Shown here: in pieces, positions 2 through 20,326 of the stretch
Position numbering within the stretch: the first letter of the stretch is position 1
How the letters are laid out: every line of letters begins with the position of its first letter
Assembly (NCBI RefSeq): GCF_031326345.1
Contig: NZ_CP133671.1
Coordinates: forward strand, 1,736,001-1,800,000
Source of the DNA: Aureispira sp. CCB-E
GTDB taxonomy: Bacteria; Bacteroidota; Bacteroidia; Chitinophagales; Saprospiraceae
Direction: 5' to 3'
DNA: 64,000 nt
Program-made: the position numbers and the translations under genes
The notes under the pieces: model-generated
Database searches by the model: none
The model's input: only the letters and a program-made list of their open reading frames with translations
Told to the model about the DNA's origin: nothing

Positions 2-3000
2 CAAAGCACAGTTTCTTCGGGGGCACCAGAAATAGATGTCTTAGGAAATGGTTTATCTATTGTAGATGGTGACGTGACACCTAGTGCTGGCGACGATACG
101 GACTTTGGAAACGTTACTGTCGGAGGAAATACAGCGCGAACATTCACTATTTCAAACACAGGTGGTACTGCAGCCTTGGATGTAAGTAGTATTAATTTGA
201 GCGGAGCAAATGCAGGCGATTTTGCAGTGAGCGGTATTACATTGCCAGCCAATATAGCTGCTGGAGCGACTACAACATTTACACTAACATTTACGCCTGG
301 AGCAGCTGGCGTTCGGAATGCAACGGTAACGATTAATAACAATGATGCCGATGAAGGAACGTATGCATACGCTGTTCAAGGTACTGGCGTTGCAAACCCA
401 GAGATAGATATATTAGGAAATGGTTTGTCTATTGTCAATGGAGATATTACACCTAGTGTTGGTGACGATACCGATTTTGGGAGCGTTAATGCTGGTGCAA
501 ATACAGTAAGAACATTTACCATTTCTAATGTAGCAGGAACAGGGGTATTGAATGTGTCTAGTATTGTGGTAAGTGGAGCGGATGCAGGGGACTTTGTAAT
601 TGGTGGAATTACATTGCCTGCTAGTGTGGCAGCAGGGGCTACAGCTACTTTTACAGCAACATTTACGCCATCAGCAGGTGGGGTGCGAAATGCAACAGTT
701 ACTGTCAATAATGATGATGCAGACGAAGGAACATATAGTTTTGCAATACGTGGAACGGGCATATTACCATCCGTTGCAATTACAGAATGGATCGCCGACC
801 CTTTGGCCAATGATTTGACAGATGAGTGGGTAGAGCTGCATAACTTTGGAGCTACTCCAATTGATATTCAGAATTGGGAAATTGAAGATGAAGGCGTAGA
901 CGATGATGTTATTACAACGACTAGTTTTATTATTCCCGCAGGAGGTTATGTTATTCTAGCTAGAAATAAAGCAATTTTTGAAGCACAGTGGTTGAATGGT
1001 TGCCCTTCTGCGAATGTAATTGAGGTAGCCGGTTTGACTTTAGGAAATGGTGCGGATGAAATTATTATAAAAGACAATAACGATATTGTTATTTGGTCTG
1101 TTGCTTATCAAAATGATGATGTAACGGGAATTGCAGCACATTATACCGAAGCACCAACTTTTACGAATAGAATCTGGGGATCTGCTGCTAGTCCAGGAGT
1201 AGATCGAACAGGAAATGATCCTGCAACGGGAACATTAGGCTATGAAAATAATAACGCAACAGCCGACCCCAACGTAATGACTTCGACAACAGGAGATATG
1301 GGAAGTCCTTTTAATGGTACGTATACACCACCTACAAAAGATCTTGTTCGTGGCGATGTACTAGATTTTGATGGTACCGATGATTTGGTGAGCGTTGCTG
1401 ATAATGCTTCTCTGGACATAACAGGAGATGTTACGTTTGAAGCATGGGTATTGATAAAAGGAAATGCAGCTACTGGATTCCATACTATTTTGGATAAAAC
1501 AGAAATAGCTGACAATGCCAACTACAGACCCTACATCAACAGTCCTGCTAACACAATGGGTTTTTATAATGGAACAACTGCCGTTAATGCTTCTGCGGCT
1601 ATTACTGCCAATGAATGGACGCATGTTTGTTGGGCTTATGACAATGGAACAGGGTTAATGACTTTTTATATGAATGGTGCTTCTGTTTTTACAGCAGCCA
1701 CTAGTATGGGGGCAACCAATGATGGAATTTTGAGAATAGGTACAGATATTTTAGGACGATTTAGCAATGTCTTATTGGATGAAGTTCGCATATGGAATAC
1801 TACCCGTACGGCAACAGAAGTTCGTGAAAATATGCACCTAACTTTAGAAGATTGTCCAACGGGCTTGGTGGCTTATTATCAAATGAATGATGGAACAGGT
1901 TCAAGTGCTTTGACAGATCATTCTGGAAACTCTAATACTGGTACATTAACAAACATGGACCCTGCGACAGATTGGGTCAATTCAGGAGTTAATATAGGGA
2001 ATGATGCAGGAAATGTTTCTAACAGTCAAACACTTGCTGTAGGAGCTGGTGTGAGTACGCAAAATTTTGCTACAGCTAATTTGAGCATTGATTTTACAGC
2101 ACATTCTGTACCAGAGGATTTTACCGTAACTTACCACAGGTTTACCCCCAATGCAACAACAGGTATTGTGGGATCGAATATCATTCAAAACCCAATGTGG
2201 ACGATAGATAAAGCAACAACTTTTTCTACTCAAACGATGGACTTAACATTTAATTTCCCTGTTGCAACAATTACAACCGTTGATATTTGTCAACTCAATC
2301 TTTATAATCGACCAACAGGGAGTGATGGGGCTTGGACATTGGTACGAAAAGCATCAACCGTTAGTGGAACATCAGTTACCTTTAGCGATATTAGTTTGAC
2401 AGGACAGTTTATGGTTGTAGAGGACAACACAGCTATTCCTGCGGATATTGTTCGGGGCGATGTGCTAGATTTTGATGGAATTGATGATTATGTAGCTATT
2501 GGTAATTTAGGAAATGTTACAGATTGGACGATTGAAACGTGGTTCCGTCCAAATGGTCTAAATAATTATGAGAATATATTCCATACCGCTTTTCCTGGAG
2601 CAGGAACTTCAGATGATGGCGTAAGGTTAGAGCTTAGTAATAATTTTGCCAATGGATTGCTTTATGTTTCGGTTTCTGGTAATGGTACTTTTAATCCATA
2701 TACGATTGTACCATTAGGCGGTAATTTACCTGATGAATGGCACCACATTGCTATTGTTGGAGATCAAACGAATGGTAGAGTTATTGTTTATCTAAATGGA
2801 ATAGAGGTGGTCAATAGTGTCAATGCGAACTGGCCTGCGAGCTTCTCTAACATGGTATTGGGGAGAGGTTTTGACGCTAATAATTTGGACAGAGAATTTT
2901 CGGGGCAACTGGATGAAGTTCGTATCTGGACAACGACACGTAGTGCAAATGAAATCCGTGAAAATATGCATTTAACTTTGGATGCTTGTGCAAACGGTTT

Positions 3001-5269
3001 GTTGACTTATTATCAAATGAATGATGGAGTAGGCTCTGCTACCTTAGCCGATAAAACAGGGAATGGAAATACTGGGACATTAACGAATATGGATCCAGCT
3101 ACAGATTGGGCAGCATCGGATGTCAATGTTGGAAACGATGCTTTGAGAAGTTCCAATAGCCAAACGATTAACGTTCCTTCGGGAGTAAGTACCCAGACTT
3201 TTGTAGCGGCTAATGCTACCATGAGATTCTTTCAGCATTCTGCAACAGAAGAGATCACTGTTACTTATCAAGCGTTTATCCCAAATAGTATTGTAGGGGT
3301 GAATGCCACTAATTTGATTCAAAATCCAATGTGGACGGTGAACCGATCGAATAATACTTCTAACTTGGTCGTAGATTATACGTTTAATTTTGCCCCAAAT
3401 ACATTTATTAGTTTGAATCCTGCAAAATATGGTTTGTATTATCGCCCTATGAATTCTGGTGGAGCATGGACTAAAATTGCAGTTGCAAATACTGTAACTA
3501 ATAATTCGGTAACGTTTGGAAAAATAAGTTTAACAGGACAGTTTATGGTCGTACGGGAGTCCGAAATTCTAGTTTCAGATGTACGTGGTAATATGTACGA
3601 GTTTGATGGTACGAATTTTATAGATCACTCTGCTACGGCTACCAACTTGCCAACAGGAAATGCTCCTAGAACAATAGAGGCTTGGATTAAAACTACCCAG
3701 TTAGGTTTGGGGAATATTGTTAGTTGGGGAAGAAGAAGCAATAATCAAAGAAATAGTATGGCGGTTCGTGGTAATGTATTGGGCTTTGTAGGAGAACTTA
3801 ATGATTACAATGGTACGACTGTTATTAATGATGGAGCATGGCATCATGTTGCCATTACTTATGATGGAACAACCATGCGTTTTTATGTAGATGGGGTCTT
3901 AGATTTGGCTGTACCAACAGCTACGAACTTAAATACAACCGATCAAAACCTTAGAATTGGAACAATTGCTTTGCCTTCTTCTGGTGAAAATTATCAAGGA
4001 AGTATCGACGAAGTACGTATATGGAATGTTGCTCGTACGCAAGAAGAACTTCGTGAAAATCGCCATTTAACCCTAAAAGGTAGTGAAATTGGATTAGTTT
4101 CTTATTATCAGTTTAACACAGATGACCCTATAGGAACAGCTGGTGGAGTAAAAGATGGTGTAGGAACAAATGATGGTACAACTGTAAATATGACAGGAGC
4201 CTCTTATGTTCCTTCAGAGGTAGCAGTAGCAGGAGGTGCATTTGATCGTATTCTTATTCCAGGACCAGGAGTGTACAATTTGCCGAATACTGATATTACC
4301 ATACAGTTTGATGCCAATACACCTAATGGAGAGATTGTTGTTTCTCGATTAGAAACTGAAAAACCACATGGCTGGGAAACTATTGGAGGAGATGTCGATG
4401 ATGAGTATTTTGTGGTGAATAACTATGGTTCTAATGCCTCTTTTGATCCTTTGATTGATTTAACATTTGGTCGAATGAGTTATATTTCTGCGGCTGATGC
4501 AGCAGAACCGCAAGGCAATTCACCTTTGCAATTGTTTAAACGTTCAGATAATGCTTTTGGAGCTACTTGGGGAGCTACTCTAGGTGGTGCCAATAATGCA
4601 ACATCAGGAACGAATGCAAGTGTAAGGTATAATGCTACAAACAATGTCAACTCATTTTCACAACTCGTGATTGCCAATGTTGGTGGAACATCCGATCTAC
4701 CCGTAGAATTGACAAAGTTTGAGGCAAAACGTCTGAATGCAGATAAGGTGGCATTAAATTGGGTCACAGAGACGGAGATTAATAATCAAGGGTTCTTTAT
4801 CGAACGTATGTTAGAGACTGAAAGTGAATTCAAATCTGTAACATTTGTAGATGGAAAAGGGCAGACTACTTCTGTTACCAATTATCAGCTTTTGGATGAA
4901 AATAGTTTTACAGGGGTGTCTTATTACCGTTTGAGACAAGTAGACTTTGATGGAACAACGACCTACTCACAAATCAAAGCAGTTGAAGGGCGTTCTACTA
5001 GAGACGAATACATGGATGTGTCTATATATCCAAATCCTGTACAAAACGAACTACAAGTTCGATTTAATACTTTGCCTATCGGAGTAACATCCGCACAAAT
5101 CACAATTACAGCAGCGAGTGGCAATGTATTACATAATTTTACAGCAGATATACAGTCGTATCAATTGCTAGAAATTAATGAAGTAGCACAGCTGCCAGCA
5201 GGTTTGTACTTACTTTCTATTGAATTTGATAATAAGGAACGTGTAGCTCAAAAGTTTATAAAAGAATAG
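2..5269 (+). CDS. Large secreted T9SS protein with choice-of-anchor D repeats, lamin-tail domain and three LamG modules (5' partial)
   Basis: The frame is open from base 2, so the true start lies before the window; the GTG at 74 is an internal valine codon. Modules in order by nucleotide: two near-identical choice-of-anchor D/HYDIN-like Ig repeats (about 29-385 and 395-755), a lamin-tail-like domain (about 770-1200, EWVELHNFG), and three LamG/concanavalin-like modules (about 1350-1890, 2455-3010, 3580-4110), each carrying a DEVRIW motif and ending in the (L/R)RENMHLTL/LRENRHLTL type. The first two are followed by a beta-rich spacer ending in LTGQFMVV. Then comes a fibronectin-like LPVELTKFEAK segment common before T9SS signals, and a type A sorting domain (SIYPNPVQNELQV to AQKFIKE, about 5014-5266). 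Family knowledge: such proteins are exported by T9SS to the surface or medium and the sorting domain is removed. An adhesin or carbohydrate-binding role is inference. Confidence 0.9.
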   Translation, partial: QSTVSSGAPEIDVLGNGLSIVDGDVTPSAGDDTDFGNVTVGGNTARTFTISNTGGTAALDVSSINLSGANAGDFAVSGITLPANIAAGATTTFTLTFTPGAAGVRNATVTINNNDADEGTYAYAVQGTGVANPEIDILGNGLSIVNGDITPSVGDDTDFGSVNAGANTVRTFTISNVAGTGVLNVSSIVVSGADAGDFVIGGITLPASVAAGATATFTATFTPSAGGVRNATVTVNNDDADEGTYSFAIRGTGILPSVAITEWIADPLANDLTDEWVELHNFGATPIDIQNWEIEDEGVDDDVITTTSFIIPAGGYVILARNKAIFEAQWLNGCPSANVIEVAGLTLGNGADEIIIKDNNDIVIWSVAYQNDDVTGIAAHYTEAPTFTNRIWGSAASPGVDRTGNDPATGTLGYENNNATADPNVMTSTTGDMGSPFNGTYTPPTKDLVRGDVLDFDGTDDLVSVADNASLDITGDVTFEAWVLIKGNAATGFHTILDKTEIADNANYRPYINSPANTMGFYNGTTAVNASAAITANEWTHVCWAYDNGTGLMTFYMNGASVFTAATSMGATNDGILRIGTDILGRFSNVLLDEVRIWNTTRTATEVRENMHLTLEDCPTGLVAYYQMNDGTGSSALTDHSGNSNTGTLTNMDPATDWVNSGVNIGNDAGNVSNSQTLAVGAGVSTQNFATANLSIDFTAHSVPEDFTVTYHRFTPNATTGIVGSNIIQNPMWTIDKATTFSTQTMDLTFNFPVATITTVDICQLNLYNRPTGSDGAWTLVRKASTVSGTSVTFSDISLTGQFMVVEDNTAIPADIVRGDVLDFDGIDDYVAIGNLGNVTDWTIETWFRPNGLNNYENIFHTAFPGAGTSDDGVRLELSNNFANGLLYVSVSGNGTFNPYTIVPLGGNLPDEWHHIAIVGDQTNGRVIVYLNGIEVVNSVNANWPASFSNMVLGRGFDANNLDREFSGQLDEVRIWTTTRSANEIRENMHLTLDACANGLLTYYQMNDGVGSATLADKTGNGNTGTLTNMDPATDWAASDVNVGNDALRSSNSQTINVPSGVSTQTFVAANATMRFFQHSATEEITVTYQAFIPNSIVGVNATNLIQNPMWTVNRSNNTSNLVVDYTFNFAPNTFISLNPAKYGLYYRPMNSGGAWTKIAVANTVTNNSVTFGKISLTGQFMVVRESEILVSDVRGNMYEFDGTNFIDHSATATNLPTGNAPRTIEAWIKTTQLGLGNIVSWGRRSNNQRNSMAVRGNVLGFVGELNDYNGTTVINDGAWHHVAITYDGTTMRFYVDGVLDLAVPTATNLNTTDQNLRIGTIALPSSGENYQGSIDEVRIWNVARTQEELRENRHLTLKGSEIGLVSYYQFNTDDPIGTAGGVKDGVGTNDGTTVNMTGASYVPSEVAVAGGAFDRILIPGPGVYNLPNTDITIQFDANTPNGEIVVSRLETEKPHGWETIGGDVDDEYFVVNNYGSNASFDPLIDLTFGRMSYISAADAAEPQGNSPLQLFKRSDNAFGATWGATLGGANNATSGTNASVRYNATNNVNSFSQLVIANVGGTSDLPVELTKFEAKRLNADKVALNWVTETEINNQGFFIERMLETESEFKSVTFVDGKGQTTSVTNYQLLDENSFTGVSYYRLRQVDFDGTTTYSQIKAVEGRSTRDEYMDVSIYPNPVQNELQVRFNTLPIGVTSAQITITAASGNVLHNFTADIQSYQLLEINEVAQLPAGLYLLSIEFDNKERVAQKFIKE

Positions 5270-5300
5270 TTGCATGGCGTAGCTTAGGTTAAGTGAATAA

Positions 5301-5341
5301 AATAGCAGTACTATCAATTAATTGGTGCTGCTATTTTTTTT
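5301..5341 (+). terminator. Rho-independent terminator after the large T9SS gene
   Basis: AATAGCAGTAC (5301-5311) pairs with GTGCTGCTATT (5325-5335) with one mismatch, followed by a run of T. It sits 32 bp after the stop codon. The rest of the 303-bp gap to 5573 holds nothing I can identify apart from AT-rich DNA. Confidence 0.8.
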
Positions 5342-5572
5342 AGCCCAAAGAAATGGATTTAGAGCAAAACTTTGGACTGCTTGCATTGTGAAAGCTATGT
5401 TTAGAATTAAATGTCAAGATACTTTAATATTGAGCTTCAAATTTTTATAGAAAGATTGAAAAAAAATGGTGAAATTTTAAACCTTTTTTGCTTTTTTAGG
5501 TTTATCTTAAATGCGAATAGATTGTAGTGTTTACCCCCAAAACTCTTTGTATTATTCTTCAAACCATAGGTA

Positions 5573-6577
5573 ATGAAAGTAAAAGAATTGAGAGATATTT
5601 TATCTAAAATGCCCAAGGATAAATTATTGAATTTGTCTATTGAATTTTATAAACTGATACCTAAAGCACAAAAGGAAGTGATGGCTTTGGATGACTATAT
5701 AGAGACATCGGGGCGTAAAAAAAACAAGAAACCTATTGTTTCCATCTCTCTCGCAGAATTAGAGCAGCAAATCAATCAATTTATCATTGATGTTCGAAAC
5801 CAAGATTACCTATATCCCAATAAAACAATTGTTCGGAAAGAACGCTTAGCATGGCGGTCTAAAGTAAAGCGTTGGGGCAAAGCGTTGACAAAGAAAAATA
5901 GAACAGAGTTAAACTTTCCTAAACAAGCAGAGTTGTTGACCCAATTGTATCAAATTATTTGTGAATCTTGTGTTTACGAGTATTTTTCTGCTTACGATGC
6001 TTTTCAATCTATCGGAGTTAAACAAGTCGTTTTTTATAAGAATATTCTGAAATTACTGCAAAATATAGGAGACGACGAACAGATGCTTAACAAAGGTATT
6101 TCTCTAATCATCGAAAATCCCTTAAATACATACACGTTGTATTCTGATTTGATTATTCAGTTTGTTAAGAGCATCAAAACAGAACGGAACTATAAAAAAG
6201 CTCTCGAAGTGGCTACTCATTTATTACAAACAAATGGGTTTAATCGAAGTGATAGTCCAATTGAGCAAAAATGGACAGAAGAAGAAGAATACGAACAAGA
6301 ACAGAGACACAACAACTTGGTAGAATTGATTTATCGTTTGCATGCCAATTTTTCTGATTATTCCAAAGCTATCCAGTTTTATAAAAAACATTATTATTGT
6401 CTCAACGATGAGATAAAACTATATGTTTTGGTACGTTTGTTATTTGAAAAGGGAAAGAAAAAATTGATCAAACAAGAAATTGAATTGGCGATCAAACAAG
6501 GCATTAAACCGCGTGAAAACCTGCTTAAATTACTGGCGATGATTAATGACGAAAATTTATTACCACAATATTTATAA
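5573..6577 (+). CDS. Hypothetical helical protein, 334 aa
   Basis: I do not recognise a family. The protein is highly charged, Lys/Glu-rich and predicted to be almost wholly alpha-helical, with no signal peptide or membrane segment, so it is probably cytoplasmic. The N-terminal 60 residues (LRDILSKMPKDKLLNL) form one small domain, followed by a basic linker. The C-terminal two thirds has a repeating helix pattern (NYKKALEVATHLLQ, DYSKAIQFYKKHYY) resembling TPR or SWIM-associated helical repeats. It stands alone between two terminator-like or repeat regions, so context gives no function. The ATG start is preceded by an A-rich stretch typical of this phylum. Confidence 0.7.
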   Translation: MKVKELRDILSKMPKDKLLNLSIEFYKLIPKAQKEVMALDDYIETSGRKKNKKPIVSISLAELEQQINQFIIDVRNQDYLYPNKTIVRKERLAWRSKVKRWGKALTKKNRTELNFPKQAELLTQLYQIICESCVYEYFSAYDAFQSIGVKQVVFYKNILKLLQNIGDDEQMLNKGISLIIENPLNTYTLYSDLIIQFVKSIKTERNYKKALEVATHLLQTNGFNRSDSPIEQKWTEEEEYEQEQRHNNLVELIYRLHANFSDYSKAIQFYKKHYYCLNDEIKLYVLVRLLFEKGKKKLIKQEIELAIKQGIKPRENLLKLLAMINDENLLPQYL

Positions 6578-6589
6578 TCGACTATTAAG

Positions 6590-6624
6590 TTGTAGTAGCA
6601 GCGCAGCCAACTATTGAAGTTGTT
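6590..6624. repeat. Dispersed intergenic repeat, family 1 copy (AGTTAGCTGCGCTGCTAC type)
   Basis: The minus strand reads CAATAGTTGGCTGCGCTGC followed by TACTAC, matching the copy at 42006-42042 over about 25 bases. It lies just after the stop of the 334-aa gene. Other copies or partial copies are at 14138, 24697, 28021, 54391, 59680 and 61993. Confidence 0.55.
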
Positions 6625-6661
6625 GATTAGTAGTTTTTTTGTAAACGATAAAGTCTAACAA

Positions 6662-7582
6662 ATGCCCCAATTAATTATACCTGGAGGATCTGGTTTTTTA
6701 GGTTTGGAATTAGCACGACATTTTGATGCTAAAGGTTGGGACGTGTGTGTGCTCTCTCGTCAAAAAAAAGCAGCTATAGGACGTATTCAATTTGAACAAT
6801 GGGATGGAAAGACATTGGGAGATTGGACAAAGGTAATAGATGGAGCTGATGTCGTTGTAAATATGGCTGGTCGGACAGTTAATTGTCGTTACAATGCGCT
6901 TAACAGAAAACAGATTTTAGATTCTCGAATAAATTCTACAAGAATTTTAGGAGAAGCCATTGCACAAGCTCAAACAAAACCAAAAGTATGGATTAACTCT
7001 AGCTCTGCTACGATTTATGAAGATACGAGAGGGCAGGCACCTGCCAACGATGAGTACAATGGAACGATTGGAACCGATTTTTCTATGAATATCTGTAAGG
7101 CTTGGGAAAAAGAGTTTAGAGCAGCACCAGTTGATTCGGTGCGAAGAATTGCACTTCGAACAGCTATTGTTATAGGAAAAGAGCCAGGAGGAGCCATGGA
7201 ATATTTAATAAATCTTTCCAAGTTCTGGTTAGGAGGAACCCAAGGAGGTGGCAATCAGTTTATTAGTTGGGTGCATCTATATGATTTTAGTCGTGTGGTA
7301 GAATTTTTAATTGAACAAGCGCATATTGATGGAGTGATTAATTGTGCTGCCCCAAATCCTGTAACAAACAAGTCCTTCATGAAAGAATTGCGTCAACAGC
7401 TGGGGCGTTCGTGGGGACTTCCTATCCCCAAAACGTTGTTGGAGATTGGCGCTGTATTTTTACAAACTCAAACGGAGTTGGTGCTTAAAAGTCGAAAAGT
7501 TGTCTCCAAACGTTTAGAAGAAGAAGGATTTCAATTTGAATATCCGACCATTCAAGCTGCATTTAAAGAAATTTGTTCTTAA
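6662..7582 (+). CDS. TIGR01777 family NAD(P)-dependent epimerase/oxidoreductase
   Basis: This is an extended short-chain dehydrogenase of the TIGR01777/SDR39U1 (YfcH-like) family, about 300 aa in the family and 306 here. The nucleotide-binding motif GGSGFLG is at residues 8-14, followed by VVNMAGR and NSSSATIYE, where this family has a divergent active site instead of the classical Tyr-Lys pair. The C-terminal LKSRKVVSKRLEEEGFQF is a family hallmark (the S.K...P.rL.e.GF.F pattern). The substrate is unknown for the family. It is monocistronic and converges on the lipoprotein gene with only 2 bp between the stops. Confidence 0.9.
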   Translation: MPQLIIPGGSGFLGLELARHFDAKGWDVCVLSRQKKAAIGRIQFEQWDGKTLGDWTKVIDGADVVVNMAGRTVNCRYNALNRKQILDSRINSTRILGEAIAQAQTKPKVWINSSSATIYEDTRGQAPANDEYNGTIGTDFSMNICKAWEKEFRAAPVDSVRRIALRTAIVIGKEPGGAMEYLINLSKFWLGGTQGGGNQFISWVHLYDFSRVVEFLIEQAHIDGVINCAAPNPVTNKSFMKELRQQLGRSWGLPIPKTLLEIGAVFLQTQTELVLKSRKVVSKRLEEEGFQFEYPTIQAAFKEICS

Positions 7583-8331: not shown

Positions 8332-10137
8332 TTAAACGATTTGAGAAAAACGTTTGTAAGCATTGGCTAGTTTTATGTCGTATTTATTTTTGGCATAAGC
8401 AGGCCCATTGTAACCTTTAGCTAAAGCAGCCCAATTTTTAGACGGACCTTGAACGTGTCTAATTAAGTTGTTATCTTTCAAGAATCCCATTAAACCACCC
8501 AATTGATTAATACCAGGTTGGTACATTGCTTCTACAAATGACTCCACATTTGAGTAGCCAGCACTAGCATAATTAAAGCCCATGATTTGGAACTCTCCCC
8601 AAGAAGTAGATTTTAGAGCAGCCGTTTTATCAATTTTCTTAGCCAATTCTAGGCGGTCATATTCTCTCTCGTTCCATTTATAGTTTGTTTTTACCCATTT
8701 TGGATAAATGATATTCTCGTTGCCTTTTTGGAGAGCAGCAGGATTCTTGCCTGCTTTTTTTAGTTCTCGCCAAAAGATATGCCCTTCAAACAAAATCTTA
8801 GGACGTCCATCGGGCAAAAATCCATTCCCCCCAGATTCTACAGCCTGAATTGCTAAGATAACCGCTACCTCAATACCATATTTTTTAGCAACATCATAGA
8901 TCCCTCCTCTGATACGACCGATGCCTAATAGTGTATTCCATGTTTTGCCATTGGCATCAATGCGGCCATCAGGTTTAGAGCTACCCACAAACTCCTTTTG
9001 GAATCGTTTGATAGCACTTACTAGAGGAATATCTACAGTGGTATCCTCTTTTAAGTTGTAATTAAATTTAATCAATAGTTTTCTGACAAGAAGAACATCT
9101 TCTGGAAGGTTTGTACCTTTGTGTCCAACAGATTTTTTTATTTTACTGGTAACACTTAATTCTTCTGGAAGTGGAGCATCACCTGTCGTAACAACCATTT
9201 TTTCATCATGAGGATTGTCATGAGGAGTTACTTTATTTAATTCTTTCCAAGTAAAACCATTAGGATCAACTCGACCATCAGGATTAGCGACACCTAGTTT
9301 AGCTTGAAAAGCTTCAATCGCTTCAATAGTTCCAGGACCAGCATCGCCATCAATATCGAGATGAGCTCCTTTTTCGTGCAATAATTGTTGTACTAATTTC
9401 ACATCATTAACGTGGTTGTCTCCATTCTTTCCAACAGAGCCTGTTAATGACTTAGCAGAGCCAGAGGTTGTTTGGTCTGGTGGTACGGATTGAGCATTTA
9501 ACTTTTTCCAAGTAAAACCATTGGGATCAATTCGACCATCAGGTTTTGGGAGACCAATACTTTGTTGAAATTCTTTGATGGCACGGATTGTTTTAAGACC
9601 ACATTTACCATCTGGTGTTAACTTCAGTAACTGTTGAACGAGGATAACATCGTCCAGTTGATTGGTTCCTTTTTTACCAACTGAAGCTTTAATTTCGGTT
9701 GCTTTAGATGCTAGAGCTGTATTGGAATCAGTATCTGTTGTAGTTTCTTCAGAAGGGTTAGAAGTAATTCTCTTACTCAAGTTTTGCCAAGTAATTCCCT
9801 TGGGATCAATGCGACCATCTGTTTTTTTGAAACCTAAGCTACGTTGAAATTTTCGTATGGCTAAATTGGTTTTAGGTCCTGCATGTCCATCGGCTTTGAT
9901 GCCTAATAGTTCTTGTACAAGTTTAACATCATTGTATTCGTTTTTGCCATTTTTACCTACCGAGTTATTAATTGTCTTTCGGGGAGGAGGGGGAGCTGCT
10001 TTTTCTAAAACAGGATTCGCTGCAATTAGCTTTTTGGCATAAGGATCATGTTTGGATGTGTCATGGGGGTTGTTGTGAATGGTTAAATACTTTGCAATAT
10101 CTTTTTGCAATTGACCAAGTTCCTCAATGAAATTCAT
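8332..10137 (-). CDS. N-acetylmuramidase (DUF3380-type) with four peptidoglycan-binding modules, no signal peptide
   Basis: I place the start at 10137 (MNFIEELGQL, 601 aa); an in-frame ATG at 10212 would add 25 unlike residues. Four PG-binding-1-like modules (about 58-122, 150-215, 232-303, 325-398) share an SVGKxGxN-xxDVxLVQxLL pattern and end in DGRIDPNGxTW. The last 200 residues match the phage-type N-acetylmuramidase domain, with the likely catalytic Glu in AVESGGNG near residue 434 and the conserved SWGEFQIMG and YNGP segments. It would cleave the glycan backbone of peptidoglycan. There is no export signal, unusual for a wall enzyme outside a phage; delivery by a secretion apparatus or lysis is possible. 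No phage genes are nearby. Confidence 0.88.
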   Translation of the reverse strand: MNFIEELGQLQKDIAKYLTIHNNPHDTSKHDPYAKKLIAANPVLEKAAPPPPRKTINNSVGKNGKNEYNDVKLVQELLGIKADGHAGPKTNLAIRKFQRSLGFKKTDGRIDPKGITWQNLSKRITSNPSEETTTDTDSNTALASKATEIKASVGKKGTNQLDDVILVQQLLKLTPDGKCGLKTIRAIKEFQQSIGLPKPDGRIDPNGFTWKKLNAQSVPPDQTTSGSAKSLTGSVGKNGDNHVNDVKLVQQLLHEKGAHLDIDGDAGPGTIEAIEAFQAKLGVANPDGRVDPNGFTWKELNKVTPHDNPHDEKMVVTTGDAPLPEELSVTSKIKKSVGHKGTNLPEDVLLVRKLLIKFNYNLKEDTTVDIPLVSAIKRFQKEFVGSSKPDGRIDANGKTWNTLLGIGRIRGGIYDVAKKYGIEVAVILAIQAVESGGNGFLPDGRPKILFEGHIFWRELKKAGKNPAALQKGNENIIYPKWVKTNYKWNEREYDRLELAKKIDKTAALKSTSWGEFQIMGFNYASAGYSNVESFVEAMYQPGINQLGGLMGFLKDNNLIRHVQGPSKNWAALAKGYNGPAYAKNKYDIKLANAYKRFSQIV

Positions 10138-12789: not shown

Positions 12790-14124
12790 TTGACTGACGA
12801 ATTTAAACAAGAGAAAGCAAGCTTATTTGCATTAATTCAATCTGGAGATGAAAACAACGTAGATATTGCTATTCAAATTATGAAAGGCGATGTTGCTTTG
12901 CAGCGAGCTTTTGTTCAAGATGCTTATATGATTATAGAACAATCGTGGCATTTGAGAACAATCCAAGGCGTTCTGAGGGCTGCGGAAGATACTCCTGCGG
13001 CAAAAGCTACTTTAAAAAAACGCTATGCTTCTTTGCTGCATTTGGTAAGTACATTGACTCATAACAGCAACAAGTTGACAACGCTGGTTTCTGTGGTAGA
13101 TGCTTTTCAGAGTTATTACTTATACAGACCTTCTGGTTGGCAACCAACCGCAAATGACAAGGAAATTATGGCAACACTTCCTGTTCAAACCTTAAATTTG
13201 CGAGATCGTTGCTTTAGTCGTTTACCTGACTGGATGGGTTATTTAACTCAATTAAAAACATTAATCCTCAGTAGAAATGTATTGAAGGTACTGCCCGATT
13301 CTATTTGTAATTTGACTCGTTTGGAGCATCTAGATTTACAAGAAAATGTTCTAGAAACATTACCTCAAAATATCGGGAACTTGACGGCTCTAAAAACACT
13401 AGAATTGCGGAAGAATAGTTTTCAGGTATTGCCCGATTCTATAGGGCAATTAATAGGCTTAGAGGAATTGAGTTTGGAGTACAATCAATTGACCGCTATC
13501 CCAGTTTCAATAGGTCAAATTCAGCGATTGGTAAAACTAGATATTTCGGATAATAATCTTACACATTTACCTGAAGAAATTGGTGCTTTTAGCAATTTGG
13601 TTGAATTGGATGCTAGGAATAATCAGTTGGAAAGTTTGCCTTCAAGTTTGCAACAGTTGACCAAACTCGAAATTTTGTGGTTGTCCAACAATCAACTGGC
13701 AGATTTGCCGAATTGGGTGAGTGCCTTTAAAAAATTGAGAAAATTGCATCTGTCCAACAATCAACTCAAGCATTTACCTTCGGTAATTACGGCTTTATCC
13801 AACCTAAAACGCTTGTATTTGCACAACAATCACCTTACCACATTACCCGATGATATTGGACAATTATCAAGTTTAAATTATATTGATTTAGATGAAAATA
13901 ATATTCAGTTGTTGCCAGAATCGTTGGGGGACTTGATCGCTCTACGAGAAATACGCTTATTTAATAATCCGATTGAAAAATTACCTACTCGGTTGATCGA
14001 ATTGCCAAACTTCAAAGAAATTGGACTAGGAGATACGCCTATTGGTCGCCAGTATGGAATTGAAGTTGTGCGTGGTCGAAAAGAAGTCGTAACCTTACTA
14101 CGACAGGTTTCGGTTGTGTTCTAA
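12790..14124 (+). CDS. Leucine-rich-repeat protein, 444 aa
   Basis: The start is a TTG codon; there is an in-frame stop at 12769 and no ATG between. The first 130 residues are helical and not recognised. From about residue 135 there are twelve contiguous 23-residue LRRs of the type LxxLxLxxNxLxxLPxxIxxL, the ROCO/Shoc2-like bacterial form, and a short C-terminal cap. There is no signal peptide or sorting domain, so it is probably cytoplasmic and serves as a protein-binding scaffold. It converges on the STM4011 gene with 46 bp between the stops. The partner is unknown. Confidence 0.88.
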   Translation: MTDEFKQEKASLFALIQSGDENNVDIAIQIMKGDVALQRAFVQDAYMIIEQSWHLRTIQGVLRAAEDTPAAKATLKKRYASLLHLVSTLTHNSNKLTTLVSVVDAFQSYYLYRPSGWQPTANDKEIMATLPVQTLNLRDRCFSRLPDWMGYLTQLKTLILSRNVLKVLPDSICNLTRLEHLDLQENVLETLPQNIGNLTALKTLELRKNSFQVLPDSIGQLIGLEELSLEYNQLTAIPVSIGQIQRLVKLDISDNNLTHLPEEIGAFSNLVELDARNNQLESLPSSLQQLTKLEILWLSNNQLADLPNWVSAFKKLRKLHLSNNQLKHLPSVITALSNLKRLYLHNNHLTTLPDDIGQLSSLNYIDLDENNIQLLPESLGDLIALREIRLFNNPIEKLPTRLIELPNFKEIGLGDTPIGRQYGIEVVRGRKEVVTLLRQVSVVF

Positions 14125-14137
14125 TAATAGAATAACT

Positions 14138-14171
14138 TTGTAGCAGCCCACCTAACTATTGAAGAATAGTT
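14138..14171. repeat. Family 1 repeat copy containing a terminator-like hairpin
   Basis: TAGCAGCCCACCTAACTATT is a copy of the dispersed repeat in reverse orientation. Its end forms AACTATT (14154-14160) and AATAGTT (14165-14171), a 7-bp stem with loop GAAG that lies between the two convergent genes and may help end transcription from both sides. Confidence 0.5.
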
Positions 14172-15028
14172 TACTCTCGATATGTTGATGGAATTCGTTC
14201 AAGAATTCCATCAGCATATGTATGATATAGATTCAACTCATCCAAATGCACATAACCAATATGGCAGCCACAAGTTGCATTGATACAAGATTTAGGAGTT
14301 AGGCAATCTCTTATTTCATGTGTATAAATATTTCCTAAGACAGTATCAATAAAATGGCAACTGCGAACATCTCCATTTCCATCTACTGTAAAAGAAGTGC
14401 ACCCTGCTTGGCAAGATTTTCCTAAACTTTGGTGATGCATAGTATTGTAGCGAAACAGTGGGTCTGTTCTTTCGATTCTAAGAATATCTTCTTCTGTATA
14501 ATAGTTAGGAATTCGTTTGTAGGCATTAGCCCAAACATAACGATTAGGGTTAATACTCGCTCTCAAGCGTTCCAAAATATCAATATCCTCTTTAAAAGCA
14601 ACAAAACCAACACTATATTGAATGTTTAAAGCATCTAGTTGTTTGCATTTGTTAACAAATTTTTCTAGGCTAATTTGAGTTGGGTGGAAAGTCGTCCATA
14701 AGGCAAAAGAGTCTCTACGAACAGCATCCATCCAATTGGTCGTACAAGATAAATTGGTTTGAATACTTACTTTTTTTACGTGTGGCAAATGACTTAGTTC
14801 GGTCATTGCCTCTTGGTAATATTTTCGAATCAAACCTTCTCCCCAAGGAGTAAATAAGATGCTTATTTGTTCCGAACGCCCTTTGACCCACTGGACAAAA
14901 TTTTGTAAACGTTGCGCATCATCTGCTAGTTCTGCTCTAGTGTTTTTAGTTTTTGCAAATGGGCAGTAGCTGCACCCATAGTTGCAGCTCGATAGGGGAC
15001 CACGGTATAAAATCGACCAATGATTCAT
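14171..15028 (-). CDS. STM4011 family radical SAM protein
   Basis: The protein is 285 aa. The radical SAM cluster motif CxxxCxxC is Cys15, Cys19, Cys22 (SCNYGCSYC). The C-terminal third has further cysteines (about 206, 210, 224 and a CINATCGCH stretch near 245-256), which looks like a shortened SPASM/twitch region able to hold an auxiliary iron-sulphur cluster. SPASM-type enzymes often act on peptides or proteins. It is the last gene of the six-gene operon, 185 bp after the STM4012 gene. The family is named after a Salmonella locus and its reaction is not known to me. Confidence 0.88.
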   Translation of the reverse strand: MNHWSILYRGPLSSCNYGCSYCPFAKTKNTRAELADDAQRLQNFVQWVKGRSEQISILFTPWGEGLIRKYYQEAMTELSHLPHVKKVSIQTNLSCTTNWMDAVRRDSFALWTTFHPTQISLEKFVNKCKQLDALNIQYSVGFVAFKEDIDILERLRASINPNRYVWANAYKRIPNYYTEEDILRIERTDPLFRYNTMHHQSLGKSCQAGCTSFTVDGNGDVRSCHFIDTVLGNIYTHEIRDCLTPKSCINATCGCHIGYVHLDELNLYHTYADGILERIPSTYRE

Positions 15029-15075
15029 AATAATAATATTTAAGGCAAGAGTTTAGTAAGTAGTCTAATATATAT

Positions 15076-15092
15076 TAAGTAATCGTTCAGAA
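15076..15092 (-). repeat. Dispersed intergenic repeat, family 2 copy (TTCTGAACGATTACTTA)
   Basis: The minus strand reads TTCTGAACGATTACTTA, identical over 17 bases to the copy at 21957-21973. Further copies with changes are at 44623, 53504, 54424 and 62700. It lies in the 185-bp gap between the STM4012 and STM4011 genes. Confidence 0.55.
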
Positions 15093-15213
15093 AAAAATTC
15101 TATAAAAATAAGGCTATTTTTTTGCTATAACTTTTTATGCCCACTTACTTAGATAAAAAAGCAGCGTTCGTTTTAATTATATTTTGAACCGAATGTAGGG
15201 CTTTTGCTTAAGG

Positions 15214-16533
15214 TTAAGCCAATTCAAATCCTTGCATCATCGTACAAACTTGATCAGAATACAGCCAAGGACCAATGACATCAGAGAGTTCTAAGCCAGT
15301 TTGGTTGAGTTGCAGTTTATGGTTTTCTTTTGGAGCCAAATTAAGCGCATACAATTCCTGTAACTCTGGCAAATCATCCAAGGCATTGGTTCCAAAAAAT
15401 TGATAGTATGCTGCAAAATCTAAGTGTTGCCCTTCTAAAATGGATTTGATTACATATCGTCGCTGTTGTTCTTCTAAAGAGAGACGAGTGCCATAAAGTA
15501 CCTTTTGAAAATCTTCTGTTGTTTTTTCGTTGTAATTATGGATAATATTTTTGATCCCTTTTCGTCCAACAGCATATTCCGAGCTATAATGTAACTTTTT
15601 GGTGTAAGAACGGGCACCAACTCCCAAACCTACCATGCCATCTTCAGGACTATTGTAAGGAGGAGCGGGCATCGTAGGGGCTTTCGTATTTCTAAAAATA
15701 CGCATGGTCACTTGTTCGTATCCTTTTGACAATAAAAAATCCCGACCAAAACGATACAAGTTTAAACGGTGATCGTTCCAAGCTTTTTCTTTGAGTCCTA
15801 AACCTGTCAGAGGGCGTACATATAAAGGGTATAAGAAAATTTCCTCAGGCTGAAAAGCAATGCTTTGTTCCAGAGAATATTGCCACGAAGAAAGTGTTTG
15901 TCCTGCCATCCCGTAAATTAAATCAATATTCATTTCAGGTATTCCCGAATCTTTGATGGTTTGTAGTGCTTGTTGTACTTCAGCCGTTTGTTGTGGGCGA
16001 CCCAATGCTTTTGTTTCTTCTAGCAAAAAACTTTGAACACCAATACTAGCTCTAGTAGTCCCTTTTTCTTTTAATAAAGCTAATTTTTCGACACTGGCAG
16101 TTTTGGGAGACATTTCCACAGAACTAGGAATAGAAAGTAGATCTGCTCCCATGATGTCTTCAAGGATAAAAAACAAACGCTCTAAGTCTGTTGTACTCAA
16201 AAAGGTAGGTGTGCCCCCACCAATAGCCAATCGATTAAAATTGGCATCTCCCAAGGCTGCCTTTACTTCTGTAGCTTGGCGTTCTAAGCTTTGTATAAAA
16301 GGACTTTCGTGGGTCTCTTTGGGATTGGCAATAGTGAACAAGTTGCAAAAACCACAACGCATTTCACAAAATGGAACGTGCACATACAAAAAAAGTCGCT
16401 CTTTGTTTTCTTCACTCCAAACCTCCTTTAAAGAAAGTGGATTCTCAAAAGGTCTATAACTAGATTTGTGAGGGTAGGAATAAGCATAACCTTGAAAAAA
16501 ATTATCATTTATGATAGATTGTAATTTTGCCAT
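15214..16533 (-). CDS. STM4012 family radical SAM protein (HemN/HemW-like)
   Basis: The protein is 439 aa. The motif Cys56-x3-Cys60-x2-Cys63 (HVPFCEMRCGFCNLF) is the HemN/HemW form of the radical SAM site. It continues with GGGTPTFLS, SVEMSPKT, IGVQSF and the DLIYGMAGQT motif, as in coproporphyrinogen oxidase-like proteins, and a winged-helix-like C-terminus. In the HemW branch such proteins often act as haem chaperones or methyltransferases, not oxidases. Its place in the STM4011-4015 operon argues for a dedicated role there. It lies 41 bp after the hydrolase gene. Confidence 0.9.
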   Translation of the reverse strand: MAKLQSIINDNFFQGYAYSYPHKSSYRPFENPLSLKEVWSEENKERLFLYVHVPFCEMRCGFCNLFTIANPKETHESPFIQSLERQATEVKAALGDANFNRLAIGGGTPTFLSTTDLERLFFILEDIMGADLLSIPSSVEMSPKTASVEKLALLKEKGTTRASIGVQSFLLEETKALGRPQQTAEVQQALQTIKDSGIPEMNIDLIYGMAGQTLSSWQYSLEQSIAFQPEEIFLYPLYVRPLTGLGLKEKAWNDHRLNLYRFGRDFLLSKGYEQVTMRIFRNTKAPTMPAPPYNSPEDGMVGLGVGARSYTKKLHYSSEYAVGRKGIKNIIHNYNEKTTEDFQKVLYGTRLSLEEQQRRYVIKSILEGQHLDFAAYYQFFGTNALDDLPELQELYALNLAPKENHKLQLNQTGLELSDVIGPWLYSDQVCTMMQGFELA

Positions 16534-16574
16534 TGTGTGGTATGAATATATAGGTGATAATGTCTAATGAAGTA

Positions 16575-17375
16575 TTATTTTTTTAACAAAACCTCTAAGT
16601 AAGGAACAGTCCAAACGTTAGAGTGCCCAATTCGATGCCCTATGTAGCCGTCTTCTCCATAAGTAGTGCCATGATCCGCAGAACAAATGACAAAACTTTG
16701 TTGGCGGCGTTTATGGAGTGCGTTCATTAATATTGGTAATTGGCTATCTACATATTCCAAAGCAGCCGCATGACTTTCAATGGTGTCTTGCAAGTTATCA
16801 TCCAAATAAAAGCAATTGGGCTGATGAATGGCAGAAATATTAATAAATAAGAAAACAGGGCTAACCGTCTGATTAAGCAAGTCAGCTGCTTTTTCAAATT
16901 GAACTTGCGTAGAATCCTTGTTGGTTACTCCGAATGATTCTTCCCAATAGCTCTCTTCAAATAAGTCTGGAAAAACATTACTTAATGGAGTTTGTTTGTT
17001 GAAAAAGCCAACGCCACCTATGCAAATCGTCTTAAATCCTTTTTGTTGTAGTCCTTTAACAATATTAGGGGCATCAAAGGTGCAAGTCTCTGCAACAGCC
17101 GTTTCGCTACCTTCAAATCTTGTTGCAAAGAGACGAGGTTGCTTAGGAGTTTCAATAGGAGTTGGCAAAAAACCAGCAAAAAAGGCATGGTGAGCAGCAT
17201 AAGTAAAACTTCCTGGCGTATGCCGTTGTTCCCAGCCTTTGGGAGAAAGCCACTTAGAAAAATTAGGCAATTTGCCTTGCACCCAAAGCGTTTGAGCAAC
17301 ATCATAGCGTAGAGTATCTAAAGTTATAAAAACGAGATCACTGTCGGTGATAATTTCGTTCATATTATGCAGCAT
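16575..17375 (-). CDS. STM4013/SEN3800 family alkaline-phosphatase-fold hydrolase
   Basis: The protein is 266 aa, short for a sulfatase. FITLDTLRYD (Asp20 the likely metal ligand) opens the fold and SADHGTTYGEDGYIGHRIGHS near the end carries the D-H-G and downstream His metal ligands of the alkaline phosphatase/sulfatase superfamily. The formylglycine signature C/S-x-P-x-R of true sulfatases is absent; a Ser/Thr in TPGSFTYAAHH may be the nucleophile. It is therefore probably a phosphatase, phosphodiesterase or transferase. An alternative start is Met5. It is co-transcribed with STM4012 and follows the HAD gene by 123 bp. Confidence 0.85.
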   Translation of the reverse strand: MLHNMNEIITDSDLVFITLDTLRYDVAQTLWVQGKLPNFSKWLSPKGWEQRHTPGSFTYAAHHAFFAGFLPTPIETPKQPRLFATRFEGSETAVAETCTFDAPNIVKGLQQKGFKTICIGGVGFFNKQTPLSNVFPDLFEESYWEESFGVTNKDSTQVQFEKAADLLNQTVSPVFLFINISAIHQPNCFYLDDNLQDTIESHAAALEYVDSQLPILMNALHKRRQQSFVICSADHGTTYGEDGYIGHRIGHSNVWTVPYLEVLLKK

Positions 17376-17498
17376 GCAGGAAAAATTTTAAGATTAAACT
17401 TTGGAAATTTATGCCAATGCACATTACTTTACGAGTATTGTACAATTGATTGTTAGTGTACTGTTTTTTAGTAGTAACTAGCAGATAATTAATTGGGT

Positions 17499-18158
17499 TT
17501 ACAGAGTATTAAACTCAAGAATATGCTCTATCGTTATATCTGGTTTTATCTTGTATATCCATTCTCTTTTGTGGCTGACCCAAGCCGTTTTGATGCCTAC
17601 TTTTGCGGCACCCTTTATATCATTAATAGGATCATCACCTACATATAATAGATGTTGCGGTTCCAGTTTCCATTGTTCTAATATTAATTCAAATAACTGT
17701 GTATCTGGTTTAGATAAATGATATTGTTGAGCAATGTGAATGGTTTCTGTAGAAAAAATAGAATCTAATTGAGCATTGCGAATTTTTCGGCTTTGATTAC
17801 TGATGGAGCCATTGGTTAAGATTCCGATTCTATACTGTTGTTTTAACTTGTATAGCAATTCTCTTAAAGCTGGAGTTATTGGTGGCACATAACTGCTGAT
17901 ATTAGCGTGTACATAGTTCCAAAAACTTGTTTCGTCCCAACCTTGAGGCTGGTAATAATGAATGAACCATTCGACGAATTCTTCTCGAGGTGTATATCCA
18001 GATTGATCGACATTTTCTATTTCAAAAGCTTCATTATTGAAATAGTAGTTGGGCATGTTTTCATCAAAAAACTGTTGCATACAAGCCAAAAAAGCAGCAT
18101 TTCGATCAATTAAAGTATTGTCTAGGTCAAAGTATATTGTGCTTATCCCATCAAGCAT
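17499..18158 (-). CDS. HAD family hydrolase (YjjG-like)
   Basis: The protein is 219 aa. It has all four HAD motifs: YFDLDNTL (nucleophile Asp11, Asp13), LTNGS, the Lys in SKPDTQLF, and YVGDDPINDIKGA. A helical C1 cap lies between motifs I and II. The closest recognisable type is the YjjG/noncanonical nucleotidase and haloacid-dehalogenase-like subfamily, which removes phosphate from small molecules. Its start overlaps the end of the ATP-grasp gene by 8 bp, so the two are translationally coupled, a strong sign of joint function in this operon. Confidence 0.9.
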   Translation of the reverse strand: MLDGISTIYFDLDNTLIDRNAAFLACMQQFFDENMPNYYFNNEAFEIENVDQSGYTPREEFVEWFIHYYQPQGWDETSFWNYVHANISSYVPPITPALRELLYKLKQQYRIGILTNGSISNQSRKIRNAQLDSIFSTETIHIAQQYHLSKPDTQLFELILEQWKLEPQHLLYVGDDPINDIKGAAKVGIKTAWVSHKREWIYKIKPDITIEHILEFNTL

Positions 18159-19293
18159 ACTCTTTTTCTTTTATATAGTTTATAGTACTTGTGTAGGTAT
18201 CCATATTGTTGATCAATACATTGGGTAATAAATCTCCAAATGCATTGGCTTCTAAGATATAACTTTTTTTTAAGGTATTAGAAATCATGACATCCATTCC
18301 TGCATAAGTTGTGTTGGGTAAAGTAGCAACCGCTTTCTCTGCTAAATGGCTCATTTGTTGCCATTTATCGAAGCCAATAATGCGCTTGACTTCTTGAATG
18401 CTGCCTCTCTGATTGCCCAAATGTAAATTGGTCATAGGAGATTGACTTTGTCGCACTACTACTTGTTTGGTTTTCCCACCGATAACAACCATTCTTAAAT
18501 CAAAGGTGCCTCCTTCTACAGATGCTTTGGGAATCCATTGTTCAACGAGTATCCCTTCTTTGGCTAAAGTATTGACCAAATAGGCAATTTCTTTAGAGTT
18601 GTTGTAGGTGCGAATTTTTAGTGAATTAAATAATTTGGCAGAAGTGGCATTTTGAACCAGCTCTACAGAAGTGATTGCTTGTACTTTACTTCCTTTAATT
18701 CTAAAGGCAATGACTCCTGATGCAGAAGAACCATGAATCGGTTTGATAAACACGCTTCTCCATTGTTGTTGTCGCATTTGAGTAAGCAAATCATCATAAT
18801 TTTTAATATGGTATAAAGCTGGCGCAACAGTAATGTTATGTTCTACAAAATGTTGGTGACAACTTGTTTTATCAAACATCAGTTGAATGCCTTCAATGCT
18901 GTTAATTAATTGAACCGTAGGATATAGATCAATTTTTTGTTGCAATTGATTTAGAAAAGTGACAAAACCAAGATGGTGTTGTTTCAAAAACTGTATGCGT
19001 CCTTTTTCAAAAGGCAATTGATCAACAGATTCCAAATCAATAGAATCGGCATTTCTTAAATCAGGATGATGGGCACCTAGCTTTAAAAAAGCACAGTGAA
19101 CCGCCCAATTTTCACCAGGGGATTCAATTCTCAAATAGTTGGTCTGAGCGAGTATAGGATGTAAATCTACCTTTTGTTGTAAAACATCTAAATAAGAGAC
19201 AACAAAAGGGGCAGTAAAACCTTGGGATTTTACTGCCTCTAAGAAGTATTGACAACGTCTATTTTCAGGATTCCCGATTAGCGTAAATTGCAT
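18151..19293 (-). CDS. STM4014 family protein (ATP-grasp fold)
   Basis: The protein is 380 aa. A RimK/glutathione-synthetase-like ATP-grasp core is visible: FIKPIHGSSASGV (about 179-191, phosphate loop and Lys), DLRMVVIGGK (near 262) and ILEANAFGD (near 344, metal-binding Glu/Asn). Such enzymes activate a carboxylate with ATP and join it to an amine or thiol, often adding amino acids to a peptide. The N-terminal 120 residues are specific to this family. It begins 17 bp after the STM4015-like gene and overlaps the HAD gene. That it ligates something to the product of a neighbouring gene is inference. Confidence 0.87.
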   Translation of the reverse strand: MQFTLIGNPENRRCQYFLEAVKSQGFTAPFVVSYLDVLQQKVDLHPILAQTNYLRIESPGENWAVHCAFLKLGAHHPDLRNADSIDLESVDQLPFEKGRIQFLKQHHLGFVTFLNQLQQKIDLYPTVQLINSIEGIQLMFDKTSCHQHFVEHNITVAPALYHIKNYDDLLTQMRQQQWRSVFIKPIHGSSASGVIAFRIKGSKVQAITSVELVQNATSAKLFNSLKIRTYNNSKEIAYLVNTLAKEGILVEQWIPKASVEGGTFDLRMVVIGGKTKQVVVRQSQSPMTNLHLGNQRGSIQEVKRIIGFDKWQQMSHLAEKAVATLPNTTYAGMDVMISNTLKKSYILEANAFGDLLPNVLINNMDTYTSTINYIKEKEYA

Positions 19294-19310
19294 GTGTATA
19301 ATGGATCCAA

Positions 19311-20243
19311 TTACTCTGATACAGAAATATAGCGATCGTCCTCGTCTGCGTCAGGTTCCCTTTCTTTTAGGTCTACCTTAATTCCCAAATCTTCTAATTT
19401 TTCTGCCCATTCATCCGAAATAAAGTTGTGATGCAAATCTAGTTTTTTTAGGTTTTTGATAGCAGGATTATCCACCAATGCTTCTGCACCTCTATCATCA
19501 ATTATTCCTCTAGAAAAATCCAATGTCTCAATACGATCTAAAATAGGATCTCCTTTCATGAGTTGAGCCAATTCGTTCGCAATTTCACTATTTCTAAGAC
19601 CTAGATATTTTAGAGAAGGTAGGTGGTTGGTTTTGCCTTCAGCTCCTCGATAAGCAATTGCAACTTCTTCGGGAGTAGCATTGAAGCCATAATAATCAGA
19701 ACCTAGCCATAATTCTAAATGTTCTAAAGCCGGCAAATTAGCTTTTGATAACTCAGCATAAACAGATTTGTCTAATCCCCCTGTTTGAATGACTAATTTC
19801 TTTAAGTTGGGATGATTGATGTCTCCAAAACTCAAGCCGTTGCCACCACGAACTTGATAAAACTCTAAGTTAGGTAAGGCAGCTAAAAGAGGGCCATGAT
19901 TACAGTTTTCAATCCAAGAAACTTCATTTTCTTCATAGGTAATGTCTCCTGTAAAGATGCCTTTGATGTGCTGCAATTTATCTTTATTGTCAACCAATAA
20001 TTGAAGAATAGATTTGGGAGAGTCATCGTGCTCAGGTCCCCAATATCCAATGACAAAGCTGTCTATTTCTCCCAGTTTAGGGTCATTCAAAAAAGCGGTT
20101 AGCATATTTTTGACCTCATCTTCTGGACCATCATATTCTGTACGAAAACGATACGCTAAATCTGGATTTTCGATACCTTTTTCTATATCAAAATCCACTA
20201 CTTTTTTCTTGTTAAAGTAAAATGCATTTCTTGAAAATGTCAT
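19311..20243 (-). CDS. STM4015 family LRR-like protein
   Basis: The protein is 310 aa with no signal peptide. The first third (FNKKKVVDFDIEKGIENPD) is typical of the STM4015 family. The remainder has irregular LRRs (LPNLEFYQVRGG, LPALEHLELWLG, LPSLKYLGLRN, NLKKLDLHHNFI). It ends in a strongly acidic tail (EREPDADEDDRY). It is the first gene of the operon, directly behind a good promoter. It may be a scaffold that presents substrate to the enzymes encoded downstream, or itself a target of modification; the sequence does not decide this. Confidence 0.85.
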   Translation of the reverse strand: MTFSRNAFYFNKKKVVDFDIEKGIENPDLAYRFRTEYDGPEDEVKNMLTAFLNDPKLGEIDSFVIGYWGPEHDDSPKSILQLLVDNKDKLQHIKGIFTGDITYEENEVSWIENCNHGPLLAALPNLEFYQVRGGNGLSFGDINHPNLKKLVIQTGGLDKSVYAELSKANLPALEHLELWLGSDYYGFNATPEEVAIAYRGAEGKTNHLPSLKYLGLRNSEIANELAQLMKGDPILDRIETLDFSRGIIDDRGAEALVDNPAIKNLKKLDLHHNFISDEWAEKLEDLGIKVDLKEREPDADEDDRYISVSE

Positions 20244-20295
20244 GATGTGTTTAATTAGGTGATGAATATATTTTTAGTATGCGTTTAATTTTTGT

Positions 20296-20326
20296 CAAAT
20301 GTATCAAAAAAGTTATATTAAGTCAA
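20296..20326 (-). promoter_or_regulatory. Promoter of the STM4011-4015 operon
   Basis: On the minus strand TTG (20326-20324), a 20-bp spacer and TACATTTG (20303-20296) match the Bacteroidota consensus TTG-N17-23-TAnnTTTG. The predicted transcription start near 20289 gives a leader of about 45 nt to the STM4015 start at 20243. Confidence 0.6.

Follow-up and report, generated by a model that had tools for sequence, protein, structure and literature searches.

In a 64,000-nucleotide stretch of the genome of Aureispira sp. CCB-E (hereafter the window; the host genome measures 7.39 Mb in two contigs), we found a gene cluster of the STM4011-STM4015 type whose leucine-rich repeat (LRR) protein, STM4015, belongs to a family that almost always ends in glutamate. 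We propose that STM4015 is the substrate or carrier of a dedicated pathway, that its terminal Glu is loaded by the ATP-grasp ligase STM4014, and that the other enzymes of the cluster act on the tail or on the group attached to it, a reading to which we give a probability of roughly 0.58. The solenoid body of STM4015 (LRR, sometimes with a HEAT or WGR domain), not itself an enzyme, would present an acidic linker and a tail with a free C-terminal Glu. STM4014 would bind this tail, activate a carboxylate of the terminal Glu as an acyl phosphate and join it to an amine. The radical S-adenosylmethionine (SAM) protein STM4011, with a C-terminus of the auxiliary-cluster type, and HemN-like STM4012 would then act on the tail or on whatever is attached to it, as would the hydrolase STM4013 and, in some lineages, a HAD phosphatase; the product may be retained on the protein or released. 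An initial annotation of the window had suggested a carrier or scaffold role for the LRR protein, and the C-terminal Glu supports that suggestion with sequence evidence that the annotation did not contain.

The window copy of STM4015 (19311..20243, minus strand; 310 residues; 296 bits against an NCBIfam cut-off of 275) ends in the motif R-Y-I-S-V-S-E, which abuts the stop codon (19314..19334, minus strand) and whose terminal Glu is the proposed modification site. It is preceded by the acidic linker REPDADEDD (19335..19361, minus strand). All eight STM4015 proteins of a first alignment terminated in Glu. We then used hidden Markov models to map the families in 90 loci, comprising relatives found in a search with an STM4013 alignment, the window, one further Bacteroidota piece (L010) and eight plasmid loci; the search of public genomes contributed the best 80 of at least 567 confirmed relatives, and the sample leans toward relatives of the window. 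Glu was the exact last residue of 119 of the 123 STM4015 open reading frames (ORFs) in these loci, and a profile lacking the tail recovered the same 123 ORFs with the same Glu count. The four exceptions (L058, L066, L068 and L100) come from loci that also hold other, intact copies, and every one of the 77 STM4015-bearing loci (not counting L047, which nearly duplicates the window) had at least one Glu-ending copy. Glu was also terminal in 14 of 14 representatives with less than 40% body identity. By comparison, these loci contain 2,622 other stop-to-stop frames of at least 150 residues, some of which are not genes, and 92 of these frames ended in Glu. STM4011, STM4013 and STM4014 showed no dominant last residue, and STM4012 leaned toward Arg and Lys (31 and 24 of 80).

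The consensus of the tail is an acidic linker, often with Trp or Tyr, followed by Arg(-7), Tyr(-6), Val/Ile/Cys, Ala/Ser, Val(-3), Ser/Gly/Ala and Glu(-1), usually R-Y-x-x-V-x-E and the stop. Asp and Glu make up 42% of positions -18 to -8 compared with 15% of the body, and Tyr or Phe occupies position -6 in 113 of 118 Glu-ending tails. Ranked by conservation among 297 columns, E(-1) was 11th, Y(-6) 34th, V(-3) 43rd and R(-7) 69th. The copies from Salmonella, from the viral-collection contig L179 and from the structural-genomics entry PDB 2ra8 keep the Glu without the R-Y pattern, and Glu is therefore the sole near-constant element of the tail. In 2ra8, an STM4015 homologue from Bacteroides fragilis (Q64V53), the matched region stops at residue 354 of 362 with the sequence YSYPMITE, and we take the last eight residues to be a purification tag. 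Paralogues of the same locus share 57% of their last seven residues and 52% of their bodies, so that stronger conservation of the tail than of the body is not supported.

A conserved end could instead serve recognition or assembly only, with the tail anchoring STM4015 to STM4014 or another partner, or packing against the rest of its own fold, while the substrate of the enzymes is a small molecule or a different protein bound by the LRR body. We regard this as the strongest rival, although an unlikely one, and three observations favor it over loading of the terminal Glu. Two other neighboring families, DUF6745 (Thr in 29 of 31) and its small partner (Asp in 31 of 31), also have dominant last residues. 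The predicted tail is not fully disordered, with a mean pLDDT (predicted local distance difference test score) of 75 over the last ten residues. Finally, of five genomes read that encode STM4015 without STM4014, three have intact tails. The other two tails are changed (RHVAVEE and RCTAVGD), compared with no change at -1 or -6 in 23 STM4015 copies from ten genomes with STM4014; this is only suggestive of tail decay where the ligase is absent, as two of five against none of 23 is too small to lean on (a sixth genome without STM4014, G518, lay outside the comparison). Against a purely recognitive tail, the free carboxylate is exactly terminal, with residues appended beyond the motif in a single ORF of the 123 (from L066), and the structural neighbors of the adjacent ligase are enzymes that act on a C-terminal Glu.

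That ligase, STM4014 (18151..19293, minus strand; NF038074, 371.9 bits, cut-off 175), gave a structural model closest to ArgX with LysW (3vpb), RimK and LysX. By this model, STM4014 appears nearest to ligases that act on the C-terminal Glu of a protein. By sequence score, the window protein falls below the RimK family cut-off (27.9 against 143.4) and has no LysX model listed at E 0.001, and the L179 protein falls below the LysX_arch cut-off (21.5 bits against 275.6). Like the system of LysW with LysX or ArgX, the cluster pairs an ATP-grasp ligase with a protein ending in Glu. It differs from that system in the STM4015 body, an LRR fold homologous to 2ra8 without a LysW-type carrier domain, in the R-Y-x-x-V-x-E tail, where LysW has EDWGE, and in having two radical SAM enzymes and phosphatases. 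No protease or release peptidase was recognized among the neighbor clusters listed, only part of which were annotated, and such a gene could lie elsewhere. RimK and ribosomal protein S6 offer a similar parallel in ligase fold and in a protein substrate with a C-terminal Glu (RimK adds Glu to the S6 C-terminus, according to a title cited within PMC8939145), and differ from STM4014 in substrate family, in operon partners and in a score far under the RimK cut-off.

The combination of an ATP-grasp ligase with a SPASM-type radical SAM protein in one locus also recalls graspetides and the radical SAM class of ribosomally synthesized and post-translationally modified peptides (RiPPs), such as those made with SkfB; it differs from both in that no short precursor was found and many STM4015 tails lack a ring-forming residue. 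In a graspetide-like reaction, STM4014 would close a ring within the tail, linking the terminal Glu as a lactone or lactam to a nearby Ser, Thr or Lys; in its favor, ATP-grasp enzymes are known to associate with SPASM-family radical SAM enzymes in graspetide systems (PMC8939145). We consider such a reaction very improbable: among 118 Glu-ending tails, the final ten residues contain none of Ser, Thr and Lys in 34 and no Lys in 117. In a RiPP-like scheme, the repeat domain would be a leader and the last residues a core peptide, which the radical SAM and ATP-grasp enzymes would modify before its cleavage to release a small product or cofactor. Several same-ended paralogues per locus, the resemblance of the STM4011 C-terminus to the peptide maturase SkfB and the aromatic residue at -6 all fit such a scheme. 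We nevertheless find it improbable: the leader would span some 300 residues, the tails of the Salmonella and L179 proteins retain Glu and not R-Y, and no protease was recognized in the partly annotated neighbor list. Leaving aside the named genes, the most widespread cluster in that list is an ABC-transporter-type ATPase (assigned by eye; 16 of 89 loci, all others in nine or fewer).

The loci hold one to four STM4015 copies each, and one genome of a Streptomyces family holds eight, near and far from the operon, with a single STM4014. Copies unlinked to the operon ended in Glu in seven of ten cases in one set read and in nine of nine in another. STM4015 carries an added HEAT domain in L056 (above the Pfam cut-off) and L058 (below it), and an added WGR domain in L100, L098 and L179. 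In L050, a pentapeptide-repeat protein ending HRYELVGE (5479-5988, minus strand) is encoded next to two STM4015 genes of the same orientation; this lone case hints that other solenoids, too, can carry the tail. We tentatively suggest, as a possibility short of an even chance, that these loci encode a new protein-tethered chemistry, in which repeat proteins (LRR, LRR with HEAT or WGR, and the one pentapeptide-repeat protein) are interchangeable carriers of the R-Y-x-x-V-x-Glu tail for one ATP-grasp and two radical SAM enzymes. With one ligase serving up to eight scattered carriers in this view, the repeat domains might direct the modified tail, or a cofactor built on it, to different targets.

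All five STM4011-STM4015 genes were present in 72 of the 90 loci, in more than ten phyla as judged from record titles. STM4013, STM4012 and STM4011 were co-oriented in 72 of 72 complete loci, as was STM4014 with at least one STM4015; all five genes were co-oriented in 65, and in the other seven the STM4014-STM4015 pair was inverted. The 18 incomplete loci include short contigs or stretches (L010, L049, L050, L052, L064, L080, L110 and L119; the genome of L010 has the complete set, in L169) and L101, where STM4014 lies just beyond the stretch. Three more are STM4013 relatives outside the system, with none of the other genes in the stretch read: L044 comes from a Ti plasmid, L045 from a Streptomyces plasmid, where it lies near CRISPR genes, and L107 from a KSB3 genome (G225) that gave no match to STM4015 or STM4014. 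Within the stretches read, STM4011 is missing from L066 and a complete STM4014 from L092, and we assigned no cause to L067, L078, L082 and L114.

Whole-genome samples gave a concordant picture. Among 198 Bacteroidota genomes, STM4013 (over its cut-off), STM4014 and STM4015 (E 1e-10) occurred in the same two genomes; in the phylum to which the Calothrix locus belongs, four of 146 genomes had STM4014 and the same four had STM4015; and of 200 genomes from a Streptomyces family, 103 had STM4015, and STM4014 was confined to 97 of these. We conclude that the five genes are a real, co-inherited system, though a sporadic one, in agreement with the dedicated pathway proposed in the initial annotation. 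The alternative that housekeeping-like enzymes (HemN/HemW-like proteins and phosphatases) lie by chance beside an unrelated LRR protein has in its favor that the members fall in broad superfamilies, yet we find it scarcely credible. The neighborhood survey that the annotation called for has been run, and it excludes chance association in a few lineages because of the co-occurrence in 72 of 90 loci and the agreement of the three genome samples.

One Salmonella plasmid (L043) carries this operon together with typA, glnA, glnL and glnG, otherwise known as chromosomal genes; the Salmonella copy gave no match in E. coli by megablast, a search that would miss distant copies. Contig L179, from a viral collection, holds a complete five-gene operon (1318-7161) with a WGR-STM4015 protein and an STM4011-HAD fusion, as well as a phage-integrase-family ORF (8499-9239), and may derive from the host or from a mobile element. 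We rejected a role in anti-phage defense, as the sole PADLOC matches (PDC-M51A with STM4012, 5e-9; pVip with STM4011, 1.1e-4) both lay in the radical SAM part.

In the window, six minus-strand ORFs follow one another in the order STM4015, STM4014, HAD, STM4013, STM4012 and STM4011, and both ORFs and family scores agree with the genes and positions first annotated. All five STM4011-STM4015 proteins exceed the curated NCBIfam cut-offs for their families; the models for STM4013, STM4014 and STM4015 are hypothetical equivalogs, that for STM4011 is a subfamily and that for STM4012 an equivalog, and their descriptions name no reaction. The closest named relative is Aureispira sp. CCB-QB1 (L047), with a 98% identical STM4013.

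STM4013 (16575..17375, minus strand; NF038075, 390 bits, cut-off 250; Pfam Sulfatase, 6.3e-13) has the alkaline-phosphatase/sulfatase fold and matches sulfatase and phosphodiesterase families. It was described earlier as lacking the formylglycine motif, which we take to be C/S-x-P-x-R, and this was borne out: that place holds an invariant threonine, T58 in window numbering (8 of 8 in the first alignment, 89 of 89 in a larger one), presumably at the nucleophile position of the superfamily. STM4012 (15214..16533, minus strand; NF006067, 565.6 bits, cut-off 380) contains CX3CX2C, and its nearest solved structures are HemN (1olt) and the methyltransferase NocN. Its earlier label, HemW-like, holds as a HemN/HemW-like resemblance, although the protein scores below the cut-offs of both HemN (142.2 against 324.95) and HemW (137.6 against 205.4). 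STM4011 (14171..15028, minus strand; NF038073, 377.3 bits, cut-off 200) has CX3CX2C and five further invariant cysteines (C206, C224, C248, C253 and C255; 76 of 76) in a Cys-rich C-terminal region. Its C-terminal half matches SkfB (6efn; profile 192-272, E 1.3e-4), consistent with the SPASM-like region noted before. By family membership, the window cluster would supply two phosphatases and radical chemistry and may yield a product.

The HAD-IA phosphatase (17499..18158, minus strand; Pfam HAD_2, 6e-27) overlaps STM4014 by 8 bp at 18151-18158, as annotated. Conserved Asp, Thr and Lys positions were seen in 28 homologues, and in other loci the family-specific copy lies directly upstream of STM4013. 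The initial annotation counted this gene toward a minimal set, an assignment that did not survive the survey. After four weak HAD matches (27-35 bits; L071, L088, L095 and L109) were dropped, HAD-IA was found in 26 of the 72 complete loci (L047 counted). Within the stretches read, a further 31 had DUF6745 with a small protein and 15 had neither, and no locus had both; HAD is therefore not obligatory. The Salmonella locus L043, one of the 15, has a Cof-type HAD-IIB downstream of STM4011, and L179, outside the 72, has its STM4011-HAD fusion, so that some kind of HAD phosphatase recurs as a partner but can be exchanged.

DUF6745 and its partner (for example L040 3725-5347 and L042 11006-12303, and in 29 other loci) form the other recurrent pair. 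The partner, of about 100 residues, has conserved G-E-x-T-G-H-x-H and H-x-E-H motifs in four sequences; it gave no PDB sequence match at E 1 and no Pfam match, and did not occur in the DNA read on either side of the window operon. The possibility of a missed short conserved ORF, also raised earlier, was not borne out: no cluster of median length under 100 residues occurred in at least five of 89 loci, in a survey of ORFs of at least 30 residues outside the named genes and not overlapping the main genes (BLAST, 1e-5, which very short or diverged ORFs could escape).

The promoter-like string TTG-N20-TACATTTG is present as annotated (20296..20326, minus strand, read from 20326), but its significance is not demonstrated: the consensus TTG-N19..21-TAnnTTTG gave nine matches in the window against 6.7 expected under a first-order Markov model, and the string is not conserved 5' of STM4015 in Aureispira L048. 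The genes are separated, from upstream to downstream, by 17 bp, the 8-bp overlap, 123 bp, 41 bp and 185 bp. Control of all six genes by one promoter, as first claimed, is therefore not established, because the gaps between HAD and STM4013 (123 bp) and between STM4012 and STM4011 (185 bp) leave room for further promoters.

The latter gap contains a dispersed repeat of about 85 bp (15070-15160) with about 50 related stretches in the genome. As the same gap measures 26 bp in Aureispira L048, compared with 185 bp in the window, this repeat looks like an insertion in the window lineage. At the end of STM4011, an inverted repeat (14180-14219) matches the opposite strand over 40 bp at 85%. The operon adjoins a convergent gene for a 444-residue LRR protein (12790-14124), which is without the Glu tail and matches other LRR families.

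In the literature searched, from which subscription papers and preprints were excluded, we found no paper on the function of these genes or of the tail. A locus tag appears in a table of sigma-54 sites (PMC3844500) and in a table of selection (PMC2784778), and PRK08208 is named in PMC11964587. The families are already named in NCBIfam; if our reading is right, the logic of ligation at a C-terminal Glu is known, and the carrier and the radical SAM steps would be new. STM4011-STM4015 are widespread and bear locus-derived names, and the near-universal Glu and the resembling ligase make the cluster testable through the mass of the STM4015 C-terminus. If true, carrier-protein biosynthesis would extend from LysW-like domains to repeat proteins, with two radical SAM reactions to be found.

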